From Leptolyngbya sp. FACHB-8 (lineage in GTDB: Bacteria; Cyanobacteriota; Cyanobacteriia; Elainellales; Elainellaceae): DNA of 64,000 bases. Shown piece after piece: positions 15,586 through 62,268 of this stretch. Below the pieces are notes generated by a model. It was not told where the DNA came from. It saw nothing but the letters and a program-made list of their open reading frames with translations, and did not search any database. Position 1 is the first letter of the stretch, and every line of letters starts with the position of its first letter. The stretch lies in contig NZ_JACJOO010000071.1 in NCBI RefSeq assembly GCF_014695575.1, forward strand, positions 62,001 to 126,000, in the 5' to 3' direction. Both the position numbers and the translations under genes were made by a program.

Positions 15586-15692
15586 TTAGGAGGTTTCTGC
15601 ATAAGAATTTACCCAGAATGTTGGTGCTTTGCCCGCTTCGCGGGCAAAGCACCAACATTCTGGGGGTAATTTCATTACTGGAAATCTCCTTA
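15586..15692 (+). repeat. 107-bp hairpin element (GGAGATTTC ends), copy 1
   Basis: Ends TTAGGAGGTTTCTGCATAAG and GGAAATCTCCTTA; inner perfect stem-loop at 15612-15664 whose stem includes TTGGTGCTTTGCCCGC around loop TTC. The same layout and exact length recur at 30740-30846 and 49651-49757. Each copy is bordered by TTA on both sides. Confidence 0.88.
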
Positions 15693-30620: not shown

Positions 30621-30738
30621 CTGAGTTCGGGTTAAGGGCGTTTTCGAGTGCCGCGCGTTGCGCGGCACTCGAAAACGCTCATTTTGGCGTGCACTATGTG
30701 CACGCCAAAATGAGCACTTCAGCTTATCCCGAACTGAG
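30621..30738 (+). repeat. Two-hairpin element with GAGTTCGGGTTAAG ends
   Basis: Outer inverted repeat GAGTTCGGGTTAAG and CTTATCCCGAACTGAG encloses two back-to-back perfect hairpins, 30638-30678 (GCGTTTTCGAGTGCCGCGCG stem) and 30677-30715 (GCTCATTTTGGCGTGCAC stem). The two-armed layout matches that of the 132-bp element at 42675. A partial relative of the left end (TAAGGGCGTTTTTGAG) is at 38749-38764. Confidence 0.8.
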
Positions 30739-30739
30739 G

Positions 30740-30846
30740 TTAGGAGATTTCCAGATAAGAACTTCCCCATTATTTGGAAAAAAGGCGCGGCGAAGCCGCG
30801 CCTTTTTTCCAAATAATGGGGATATTGTTTCTCAGAAATCTCCTTA
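30740..30846 (-). repeat. 107-bp hairpin element (GGAGATTTC ends), copy 2
   Basis: Ends TTAGGAGATTTCC and GAAATCTCCTTA; inner stem-loop 30765-30821 with stem CCCCATTATTTGGAAAAAAG and core GGCGCGG. Same total length as copies 1 and 3, but the inner stem sequence is completely different while its pairing is perfect. Its right end supplies the TAA stop codon of the C39-like gene (30844-30846). Confidence 0.87.
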
Positions 30847-31908
30847 TTTAGGTTGAACTGACTCAGTTCGGTCCAAACGAGGGGCATTTTCTATAAAGGG
30901 ACCGCTGAGCAGCAATGCTGTGATGGAATCGACCTCGCCGGTCTGACGCACCGCAAAGTCGGATTGGAATTGCTTGAGTGCTGCGGTCACATCTCCTGAC
31001 CCAGGGGTCAGATAACCTGAGCGCTGTAGATAATCTTGCACCTGTTGAGGACTGAGGTTGATGGCTTCGGGGCGGAAGAAGGGAACGTATTCCTTGCGCC
31101 AAATATGAGCGAGTTCATCGGGGGCCAGGAAGTAGACTCGACCCCAGGCGGGATCTGCAATCACAGCATTGGTATCACTAATTTCCAGAAGGCCGATCGC
31201 ATGAGGGGATTTGCGTCGCCCATTGTTGCTAATCAACCAACTTGCCAGCACTCCTGGGCGATTGATGCGCTGCATTTGCTTCCAGGTGGTGTTGTTCACT
31301 TCTACCCCATCCAGCCCCAATTCACGAGCAGCCACAATGAGCTGTGGCATGGTCGTGCCCATCCGGCTGGTTTCCGCCAATTTGGCAACCCGTGACTCAG
31401 GGGCATCAATGCCCCAACGTCGCATGACAGTCGCCATTGCGGCGGCGGCACAACTGCTGGTAGAGGTTTGCTGATACACTCCGTTGGGCAATAAGTTGTC
31501 CTGCAAGGTGCTGTAGATCGGTTCAAGTAGATAGTTTTCAGCGGTGGTAAAGCTAGCCAGCCCCAACACCCCAATGAGGGCGATCGCCAACACCTGCTTG
31601 CGAAGGGTGTACCAGGTCACGATAAAGCCAACCCCACAGACACCCAGCAGAATCACCCGCATGGCAGTCCAGGTCACACGCATGCCATACACGCGCCATT
31701 CCAGCGGCAACCAATTCCATTGGGGGGCGTACAGCACCAGCAACATCATGCCAATGTACAACCCCAAAAAAACGACGGAGAGCCAATTCCGCCCCTGAAA
31801 TAAGTCGCGGGCCGTTGCCCCACGCCGCAGTAGCCAATGCCCCGTCCGAGTGCCCCACCAGAATGCAAGGCCTCCTAATAAGATTGTGCTGACCAGGCTA
31901 AGTACCAT
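30844..31908 (-). CDS. C39-type cysteine peptidase-like membrane protein with peptidoglycan-binding domain
   Basis: The first about 120 residues form four hydrophobic helices. Then comes a C39/papain-like domain: Cys in TSSCAAAAMATVMRRWG (about residue 153), His in KSPHAIGLLEI, Asp in VIADPAWGRV. The C-terminus (about 285-345) resembles a peptidoglycan-binding module: SPQQVQDYLQRSGYL and ALKQFQSDFAVRQTGEVD. C39 peptidases usually process double-glycine leaders within ABC exporters, but no ABC domain is attached here. The stop codon lies inside the 107-bp element, so the native C-terminus may have been altered. Confidence 0.82.
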   Translation of the reverse strand: MVLSLVSTILLGGLAFWWGTRTGHWLLRRGATARDLFQGRNWLSVVFLGLYIGMMLLVLYAPQWNWLPLEWRVYGMRVTWTAMRVILLGVCGVGFIVTWYTLRKQVLAIALIGVLGLASFTTAENYLLEPIYSTLQDNLLPNGVYQQTSTSSCAAAAMATVMRRWGIDAPESRVAKLAETSRMGTTMPQLIVAARELGLDGVEVNNTTWKQMQRINRPGVLASWLISNNGRRKSPHAIGLLEISDTNAVIADPAWGRVYFLAPDELAHIWRKEYVPFFRPEAINLSPQQVQDYLQRSGYLTPGSGDVTAALKQFQSDFAVRQTGEVDSITALLLSGPFIENAPRLDRTESVQPK

Positions 31909-42665: not shown

Positions 42666-42815
42666 GCATCAAGCCAGCAATTCTCAGTATGGGCATCAAA
42701 GCCAAGAGTTCACGCCCTACGGGCGTGAACTCTTGGCTTTGATGCCCGAGAACCGCGCGCCAAAGGCGCGCGGTTCTCGGGCCTGATTTCAAAATGAGAA
42801 TTGCTGGCATCAAGC
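42666..42815 (-). mobile_element. 132-bp MITE-like element, copy 1, with 9-bp target duplication
   Basis: Element 42675-42806 has terminal inverted repeats CAGCAATTCTCA (right end read on minus) and GAGAATTGCTG, and is flanked on both sides by the direct repeat GCATCAAGC (42666-42674 and 42807-42815). Inside are two adjacent perfect hairpins: one with GGGCATCAAAGCCAAGAGTT and core CACGCCC-TAC-GGGCGTG, one with CCCGAGAACCGCGCGCC around AAA. The other full copy at 62128-62259 has the same 132-bp length, inverted orientation, and its own different 9-bp duplication. No coding capacity. Confidence 0.93.
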
Positions 42816-47599: not shown

Positions 47600-48931
47600 A
47601 TGGATCTGCTGCTTGCCCTGATTCTCTCCTTTCTTTTGCTGCTGTTTAGTTCCCTTAAGGGAGTTTTTATTGCCTATCCGTTGGGGGTGGCTCTGGCAAT
47701 TTTTGTCGGGCTTTGTTGGCATCGGGGTTTTGCCCTAAAGACACTGTTTCGATTTGGCGTGGAGGGGATTCAGCGGGCCTTTCCGGTGCTGAGTGTGTTG
47801 TTGTTGATTGGTCTGGTGATCGCCAGTTGGATGGCAGCAGGAACGGTGCCAGCGTTGGTTTACTACGGCTTGCAATGGATTCATCCCCACACCTTTCTGC
47901 TGATGGCTTTTTGGCTCACCAGTGGGGTGTCCTTGTTGATCGGCACCTCCTTCGGGACAGTCGGCACCATCGGCCTGGCATTGATGACGATGGCCCAGGG
48001 CAGTGATTTAAACCCGCATCTGTTGGCAGGGGCAGTAATTGCGGGAGCCTATGTAGGCGATCGCTGCTCTCCCATGTCCTCCAGTGCCCTGCTCATCGCC
48101 ACCATTACCCGCACGAATCTTTACGGCAACCTGAAGCGCATGTGGCGCACCTCTGGAGTATCTCTGCTGGTATCGTCACTGATCTACCTGGCACTATCCC
48201 TACAACACCCCATTCATCTAACCACCCCGTCCCTCCCCCAGGATCTAGACCGAGTATTTCATATTCAGCCGTTGTTGCTATTGCCTGCGCTGCTGATTTT
48301 GGGCTTGTCAGTGGCCCAGGTGGAGGTGAAGCGATCGATGTTGCTGAGTACGGGAGTGGCGATCGCGATCGCCCTTTTCTACCAACATCACTCCCCTCTA
48401 CAACTATTACAGTTCCTCTGCCTGGGCTTTCATCTGGAAACAGGCACCTCGCTGGATGCTTTACTGCTGGGAGGCGGGATGCTATCCATGGCAAAAGTTT
48501 CCCTGGTGGTGATGATTTCCACCGCTTTTGTGGGCTTGTTTGCCGGAACCCGAATGCTGGAGTCGATTCAGGAACCTTTGATGCGGCGTACGGGAACTCG
48601 TAACCGCTTCCTGACGACTGGCTTGGTGGGCGTTGGGACAGCAGCATTTGGCTGCACCCAGACCATTGCGATCCTGCTTACTGAACAACTCATGCGCTCG
48701 AAATATAAAGAAAGCCCAACAGGGAATGCAGCTCTAGCCCTTGACCTGGAAAATACAGTAGTTGTAATCTCGCCGTTAATTCCCTGGAATATTGCGGGGC
48801 TGGTGCCCGCCACTGTGTTGAGTACAGATGCTGGCTTCATTCCCTACGCGTGCTACCTCTATTTACTTCCGCTGGCCAACTGGCTCTATAGTCAGTTAGC
48901 GACTCCGTCGAAACCACAACTATGCAACTGA
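47600..48931 (+). CDS. Na+/H+ antiporter of the NhaC family
   Basis: A 443-residue membrane protein with about 11 helices. Diagnostic parts are [19 protein letters not shown] and [20 protein letters not shown] (about residues 150-170), plus [19 protein letters not shown]. NhaC proteins exchange sodium for protons; the family also contains amino-acid and lactate antiporters. Its stop overlaps the ureA start by 10 bases, so it is co-translated with the urease genes. Confidence 0.9.
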
Positions 48932-49224
48932 CTCCCCAGGAAAAAGACAAACTTCTAATTTTTACTGCTGCGCTCCTAGCTGAACGCCGCAAAGAAAAAG
49001 GACTGAAACTCAACTACCCTGAATCCGTCGCTTACATTTCCGCTGCCATTTTGGAAGGGGCACGAGAGGGACGCACTGTATCTGAACTGATGACCCATGG
49101 CACGACTCTCTTGACCCGAGACGACGTCATGGAAGGCATTCCCGAGATGATCCACGAAGTCCAGGTCGAGGCCACCTTCCCCGATGGAACGAAACTGGTC
49201 ACTGTACACGACCCCATCCGTTAA
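48922..49224 (+). CDS. ureA: Urease subunit gamma
   Basis: The 100-residue structural subunit of urease, which hydrolyses urea to ammonia and CO2. [20 protein letters not shown] and [20 protein letters not shown] are clear family markers. Complete length. It overlaps the antiporter gene by 10 bases and is followed 45 bases later by ureB. Confidence 0.97.
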
Positions 49225-49269
49225 TGAATTTTCCCGCCACATTAATGATGTGATGTAAGGAGTAAGGCG

Positions 49270-49644
49270 ATGATTCCAGGCGAATTGTTTGTGGAGCCCG
49301 GCGAGATTGAACTGAACGCAGGGCGAGAAACCGTCACGTTGACCGTTGCAAACACGGGCGATCGCCCCATCCAGGTCGGTTCCCACTTCCACTTCTTCGA
49401 AGTCAACAAAGCCCTCTCCTTCGATCGCGACCAGGCTCGCGGCATGCGCCTCGACATCCCCGCCGGAACCGCCGTCCGCTTCGAACCCGGCGACGAAAAA
49501 GAAGTCACCCTCGTCACCCTCGTCGGCACCCGCGAAGTTTACGGCCTCAACGGCCTGATAAACGGCTTCCTCGACGGCAAACCCAAAGCTGAAGAGAAAA
49601 CTGAAAAAAGCGACAAAAAGAAAGATAAGAAGAAGAAAAAGTAG
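49270..49644 (+). CDS. ureB: Urease subunit beta, with Lys-rich tail
   Basis: Structural subunit with the standard core [20 protein letters not shown] and [31 protein letters not shown]. The core ends about residue 105; a tail of about 18 residues made almost only of Lys, Glu and Asp follows, longer than usual. Preceded by AAGGAG. The alpha subunit gene ureC, which carries the nickel site and normally comes next, is absent: a 107-bp repeat and then a peptide-transport gene follow. Confidence 0.95.
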
Positions 49645-50187
49645 CCTGTCTTAGGGGATTTCCAGCAATAAAATTACCTCCGTGATATTGGTGCTTTGCC
49701 CGCGAAGCAGGCAAAGCACCAATATCACGGGTAAATTCTTATGCAGAAATCTCCTTAGATCCTGCACCAAATCCTGAAGCCCTATTTTTCCAATGTCCAT
49801 ATGAAGGGGTTGCTGGGTTAAGAACGGCTAACCCACACCCCCTAACCCCCTCTCCTGGGAGAGGGGGGATCGGAGAAAAACAGCTCAATGGTTGTTAAAA
49901 AGGTTTTCCGGCTTGATCTCCCCTCTTCTGGGAGAGGGACCGGGGGTATGGGCTCAGGGCGATCGCTTCAAACAAGCGCATAAACCTAATTTAAAACCCA
50001 CCGATGCGAAGCGCCACATTCACCTCCCACCAATAACTCCTTGTGCCAGGGGGTCTGGGGGACGGCACCCCGTCCTCCAGTCGGGGAGTTTGAGGGGCGA
50101 CGCGCCCTCAAGCAGGGTTTCCAACATGCAACCAAAACGTTATAAAGTTCTGAATGGGTTCGCCATTTAGAATTCTTTAATCTCCTT
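49645..50187. other. Spacer after ureB
   Basis: About 540 bases holding the 107-bp element (49651-49757), a C/G-rich pair of GGGAGAGGG hairpins (around 49845-49868 and 49919-49945) and a short GAGGGCGC hairpin (50090-50111). ureC is not present in any frame. Confidence 0.6.
49651..49757 (-). repeat. 107-bp hairpin element (GGAGATTTC ends), copy 3
   Basis: Inverted relative to copy 1. Stem with TTGGTGCTTTGCCCGC is shared with copy 1, but the outer stem part differs by matched changes on both arms (here GTGATATTGG / CCAATATCAC, there AGAATGTTGG / CCAACATTCT). Begins 7 bases after the ureB stop. Confidence 0.9.
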
Positions 50188-62120: not shown

Positions 62121-62268
62121 TTCCATTCAGCAATTCTCATTTTGAAATCAGTCCCGAAAACCGCGCGCCTTTGGCGTGCGGTTTTCGGGCCTCAAAGCCA
62201 AGAGTTCACGCCCGTAGGGCGTGAACTCTTGGCTTTGAGGCCCATACTGAGAATTGCTGTCTTCCATT
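62119..62268 (+). mobile_element. 132-bp MITE-like element, copy 2, with 9-bp target duplication
   Basis: Element 62128-62259, same termini as copy 1 (CAGCAATTCTC / GAGAATTGCTG), opposite orientation, flanked by TCTTCCATT at 62119-62127 and 62260-62268. The two inner hairpins differ from copy 1 by matched pairs: CCCGAAAACC / GGTTTTCGGG against CCCGAGAACC / GGTTCTCGGG, and GGCCTCAAAGCC / GGCTTTGAGGCC against GGCATCAAAGCC / GGCTTTGATGCC. Confidence 0.93.

Follow-up and report, generated by a model that had tools for sequence, protein, structure and literature searches.

How does a repeat keep the pairing of its central hairpin and not the sequence? The question is raised by three copies of a short element in the window, the 64,000-nucleotide stretch of the Leptolyngbya sp. 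FACHB-8 genome analysed here. An earlier note had described these copies as 107 bp long, and had proposed that the hairpin itself, not its sequence, is what persists. All three are present on direct reading, and each consists of a 101-bp unit flanked on both sides by TTA. The figure of 107 bp thus holds for the full span with both 3-bp target site duplications (101 bp plus 2 × 3 bp), while the transposable unit measures 101 bp. Copy 1 (15589–15689, plus strand) is of type A, with imperfect terminal inverted repeats (TIRs) of ~26 bp and a core hairpin at 15612–15664 (plus strand) in which perfect 25-bp arms enclose a 3-nt TTC loop; its duplications (TSDs) are read directly at 15586–15588 and 15690–15692. 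Copy 2 (30743–30843, plus strand) is of type B and is a consensus member of a family of ~60 copies. Its core hairpin at 30764–30822 (plus strand) has perfect 28-bp arms and a 3-nt GAA loop, and it lies between TTA duplications at 30740–30742 and 30844–30846, the latter forming the TAA stop codon of a minus-strand gene (30844–31908). Copy 3 (49654–49754), again of type A, is in the opposite orientation, with its core hairpin at 49680–49730 (minus strand) and duplications at 49651–49653, 6 bp past the urease beta stop codon, and at 49755–49757. The folding z-scores of the three cores span −10 to −11.7 (−11.1, −11.7 and −10.0 for copies 1 to 3).

As had been claimed, the stems of copies 1 and 3 are related and differ by changes that match between the two arms, and the stem of copy 2 is unrelated to these A stems while its ends align with A-type ends. 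Two unrelated hairpins therefore occupy one frame in the window, type A in copies 1 and 3 and type B in copy 2. The earlier note had allowed that copy 2 might be a palindrome that landed by chance in a decayed element, which is excluded because this copy belongs to a family of ~60 near-identical copies. With frames of 91–140 bp, TIRs of ~26 bp and no ORF belonging to the 101-bp unit, these repeats have the form of miniature inverted-repeat transposable elements (MITEs), which are non-coding, 70–300 bp long and bounded by TIRs of 15–30 bp. Rfam covariance models run against the window matched tRNA only, with no known RNA family at the MITE. Beside copy 3, urease gamma and beta genes (48922–49644) are followed by the MITE and then by a solute-binding protein gene, with no urease alpha gene there.

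The ~26-bp MITE ends are shared with apparently intact insertion sequences (IS) of the ISAzo13 subgroup in two other genomes (L176:1469–2784, 1316 bp; L201:1159–2472, 1314 bp), both with TAA/TAA duplications, and with decayed IS copies at two further loci (L206, L191). Up to 21–24 of the 26 positions match between the window MITE ends and those of the IS. Both apparently intact IS carry two overlapping ORFs, joined where seven consecutive A precede a C (the slippery site A-AAA-AAC), an arrangement compatible with a putative −1 frameshift. The ORFs of L201 match PF07592 above its cut-off (5.9e-70 and 2e-11). They also match the ISAzo13 model NF033519 (E-values 3.9e-48 and 6.1e-12), with scores that fall short of the whole-protein cut-off in both cases, as one would expect of a protein split in two. 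In G026, G181, G312 and G317, many PF07592 matches are likewise split at the same profile position (about 55–70), which together with the A-AAA-AAC overlap suggests that frameshifting may be programmed. Related IS on named plasmids of Nostoc sp. ATCC 53789, Geminocystis sp. NIES-3709 and Acaryochloris end in GGTGATTTC or GGCGATTTC, and their 3-bp TSDs mostly match.

The MITEs thus have in common with ISAzo13 IS (PF07592, NF033519; L176, L201 and the plasmid relatives) the same ~26-bp ends and a 3-bp TNA-type duplication; unlike these IS they are non-coding, and their interior outside the ends is unrelated. The window repeats are probably non-autonomous transposons of the cyanobacterial ISAzo13 subgroup, which an ISAzo13-subgroup transposase would mobilise in trans, reading only the ~26-bp ends (GGAGATTTCYRRNAAARAATNTACC-like) and duplicating a 3-bp TNA target. 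The window's own draft genome yielded no IS with such ends; its sole PF07592 locus (L171) is without them. Other candidate sources were set aside. A PF01609 transposase beside an A-type end (L092) was considered as the autonomous partner and rejected: GGAGATTTC ends are missing from its relatives, and the IS seems to be bounded by ends of its own, GAGATCTTGCACC. An IS5-type (PF13359) locus (L087) showed no matching IS ends; an A-type MITE sits in the 5' part of its transposase gene (L087:1090–2001).

At least 75 MITE copies are present in the genome, ~60 of type B and 15 of type A. Since they were collected by pattern matching, diverged copies are under-counted and the list may be incomplete. 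The pattern GGAGATTTC-N60-90-GAAATCTCC has 61 genome matches and its reversed control none; for the left end of type B, 64 matches are obtained when as many as 3 mismatches are allowed. The 79 frames extracted from fetched loci, including a few that are partial or overlapping, comprise ~60 of type B, 15 of type A and three short forms measuring 58–61 bp. Identical flanking trinucleotides, mostly TAA or TTA, occur in 73 of the 79. For one B insertion (L038), the empty site with a single TTA is preserved in the window and at three other loci of the same genome (L041, L053, L065). Copy 2 is directly adjoined, at 30627–30739, by a dispersed repeat that has two hairpins and ends of GTTCGGG type; the L038 insertion lies within another copy of this repeat, which is also present at L041, L053 and L065. 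Long open frames are mostly spared: they contain 13 of the 79 insertions, against 1144 of 1500 control TNA sites. Insertion into stop codons was tried as a targeting rule and dropped, there being no clear enrichment (6 of the 79 insertions, compared with 4.4% of control TNA sites).

The stemless 58-bp B form (L011/L153) was considered as an ancestral empty frame; its remaining sequence equals B on both sides, and deletion is the more likely origin. At L020:1478–1642, the short form of 61 bp is B-like at its left end and A-like at its right; it adjoins a B copy in head-to-head orientation, with one TAA common to both. A sampled genome of the same genus held no strict frame match, which is consistent with a recent burst, and a search of plasmid records for the B-type element returned no match. 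HIP1 octamers (GCGATCGC), a hallmark of cyanobacteria, number 111 in the window against 1.0 expected.

Across the class, the frame was present in 12 of 388 sampled genomes, six of which have longer versions. The cores it carries are different in nearly every genome, and several occur within single genomes: three in G026, three to four in G312, and two each in G050, G007, G009 and the window's genome (G000). When representative cores were folded, 20 of 25 did better than at least 95% of their dinucleotide shuffles, and among low-copy frames no hairpin signal was found in G112, G364 (G364b) and one frame of G052 (G052_93). Short frames of 57–87 bp, which leave no room for a long hairpin, occur in one of the 388 genomes, and the frame there is a B derivative.

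One explanation for this turnover is that independent mobile hairpins, either GTAG-type REP palindromes or small dispersed repeats, repeatedly enter the frame and alone account for it. Palindromes of 28 bp and GTAG type (GTAGGGGCG-10-CGCCCCTAC) do occur outside frames in G009, G026, G312 and G050. G009, G026 and G050 also carry related cores within their frames; in G009 the core and the free palindromes have a TTTCGCGAAA centre in common, and a similar match is seen in G026, which suggests that free palindromes may have been captured. There is precedent in Anabaena variabilis, where GTAG-15 dimers are reported as insertions within longer palindromes (PMC3733652). Against this, the B core (58 matches) and the CTTCGACT core were found only inside frames in the places examined, and the GTAG tag, found only on cores in some other genomes, is absent from the A and B cores of the window's genome. 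Nor would the entry of hairpins explain matched arm changes and loop inversion within one family. As a sufficient cause it is rather unlikely. The exchange of stems between frames, for which the earlier note had proposed a search, is plausible for GTAG-type cores, which are also present outside frames, but gained no support for the B and CTTCGACT cores, found in frames only where tested.

In the B family, copies are numerous and nearly identical, and the flanks of each can serve as a mutation clock. Among 56 B copies of 101 bp, with 28 stem pairs and 42 flank positions, changes in the stem pairs are matched in 24 cases (9 types) and confined to one arm in 11 (9 types), and the flank positions show 33 changes, or 0.014 per site and copy. 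All were counted as cells against the consensus and not on a tree, such that inherited changes repeat on both sides of the comparison. At the flank rate, independent mutation would yield ~0.10 matched double changes, and the Poisson probability of 9 matched-change types is ~3e-15. In three copies (L047, L015, L074), the sole difference from the consensus is a matched pair, along with loop orientation. The arms also change length together, from A6/T6 to A4/T4 in L052 and, by inspection, by one base in L050. Relative to the fixed asymmetric ends, the B triloop reads GAA in 28 copies, TTC in 27 and TTT in one. The 25 otherwise-consensus copies divide 12 to 13 between GAA and TTC, and both orientations are found on the consensus, 90C and 36G/66C backgrounds and on several A backgrounds.

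Template switching is reported to create and maintain stems (PMC8794818), with arm homogenisation and spacer inversion as its joint outcome (PMC8604942). Here, one-step homogenisation of the arms is seen in the 24 matched changes against 0.10 expected, and inversion of the spacer between identical arms in the two loop orientations, the latter subject to assembly confirmation. Given this published signature, pairing that is kept while sequence is not requires no selection on the hairpin. We infer from the two signatures that the middle of the MITE is a hairpin module of free sequence, in which a polymerase switching templates between the near-palindromic arms would copy changes from one arm to the other and invert the loop, keeping the stem perfect as its sequence drifts. 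New cores would enter the frame, in several genomes apparently from the GTAG-type dispersed palindromes of the genome itself, and recent bursts of transposition would then amplify one core in one lineage. We put the probability of this reading, taken jointly with the ISAzo13 origin of the MITEs, core capture and bursts, at roughly three in four. Loop alleles could alternatively have spread by recombination between copies. It counts against the mechanism that loop ratio and arm matching both rest on a draft assembly. Moreover, template switching explains the maintenance of the hairpin, not the rarity of hairpin-less frames.

A functional hairpin has to be taken seriously as a rival, since the frame carries non-homologous hairpins time and again across the class, and short frames that are empty are rare, in one of the 388 genomes. 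If the hairpin were under purifying selection, in its DNA or its RNA form, be it for transposition, termination or protein binding, single-arm changes would be purged and compensated ones spared, and any strong hairpin would serve. The folding advantage of most representative cores (20 of 25) agrees with this, as do the triloops, most of which (8 of 15 within the window, 23 of 38 at loci elsewhere) have the C(GNA)G form, known for high stability in DNA. The B core, with A6/T6 runs beside a GC tip, also resembles a bidirectional intrinsic terminator. Nevertheless, matched changes occur in copies with no flank change and exceed what independent mutation can supply, unpaired single-arm variants persist, some of them not G-T pairs, some low-copy frames have no significant hairpin (G112, G364 and one in G052), and inversion of the loop is not predicted. 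Selection as the explanation is accordingly considered unlikely, and the persistence of pairing is read mainly as a product of mutation. In these terms, the earlier proposal that the hairpin and not its sequence persists is borne out in part. A single frame does carry non-homologous cores, in the window's genome and in the class, most of which fold better than shuffles, and frames without a hairpin are very rare; persistence for the sake of a function is not established, as matched arms and an inverted loop are the signature of template switching.

The two ideas may also be combined. The hairpin core would then be a required, sequence-independent module of an ISAzo13-type MITE, with lineages swapping hairpins while the function stays and with template switching as the repair system that keeps captured hairpins perfect. 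One such module might be a hairpin on the lagging strand, capped by a stable C(GNA)G triloop, that joins the ends or marks replicating DNA for transposition. Such a combination appears quite improbable.

An assembly artefact, in which short-read assembly of identical palindromes scrambled loop orientation and forced the arms to match, is a real concern for the loop ratio: in this draft of 95 contigs, one (C60) stops within a B copy that has identical ends on either side, palindromes can be mis-oriented, and random orientation would yield a 1:1 ratio. It is very unlikely to be the explanation, however. Contigs traverse nearly all copies, with the asymmetric ends and the TSDs as they should be, unique flank is never more than 52 bases from the loop, not all backgrounds are 1:1 (GAA:TTC is 1:5 for 90C and 4:1 for 36G/66C), single-arm mismatches are retained, and the frame and core pattern recurs in 11 other assemblies.

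Among known cyanobacterial repeats, the small dispersed repeats of Nostoc, attributed to Elhai and colleagues in 2008, are reported to be 21–27 nt long, without TSDs and probably mobile through RNA, to show compensatory stem changes, and to occur inside minitransposons. The MITEs resemble them in the compensatory stem changes, and fall outside that definition with their 101 bp, TIRs and 3-bp TSDs. Nezha and the MITEs of Anabaena sp. 90 are likewise non-coding inverted-repeat elements, high in copy number, mostly intergenic and in some cases structured, as far as the relevant passages of the two reports go (PMC3733652, PMC3542288). In those passages, the Anabaena sp. 90 elements are without a matching IS, whereas a matching IS family was found for the present MITEs, and core swapping in one frame is not described for either. 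Some cores in other genomes (GTAGGGGCG...CGCCCCTAC) fit the GTAG/CTAC type of the cyanobacterial GTAG-REP palindromes (PMC3733652). The A and B cores, free of that tag, do not, and the frame is a DDE-type TIR element with a TSD, whereas REP elements are mobilised by a Y1 transposase. For template switching at inverted repeats, the same arm homogenisation and spacer inversion, including TTC/GAA flips, are described (PMC8604942, PMC8794818). The sequences concerned there are yeast genes and RNA genes, here a multi-copy transposon of a bacterium, present in dozens of copies that are nearly identical.

When the two arms of a stem change in step, this is usually regarded as proving that the structure is selected. 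The present counts suggest that arms can be re-matched and loops inverted faster than point mutations accumulate, and covariation alone can therefore mislead in mobile DNA; nor is perfect pairing by itself a demonstration of hairpin function. A set of cyanobacterial repeats found across the class is also tied to a transposase family by this analysis, and the MITE family provides a natural test system for hairpin turnover.

Long hairpins abound elsewhere in the window. Between 4069 and 63573 there are 37, with arms of about 15–36 bp, many of them belonging to other repeat families outside the A and B frames; most have a loop of three nucleotides, which a C-G pair closes in nearly every case and which is often GNA. 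Two members of another such family, a hairpin with 27-bp arms at 42691–42747 and 62187–62243, differ by a matched change on both arms (GGGCATC/GATGCCC against GGGCCTC/GAGGCCC), and concerted arm change is thus not limited to the MITE.
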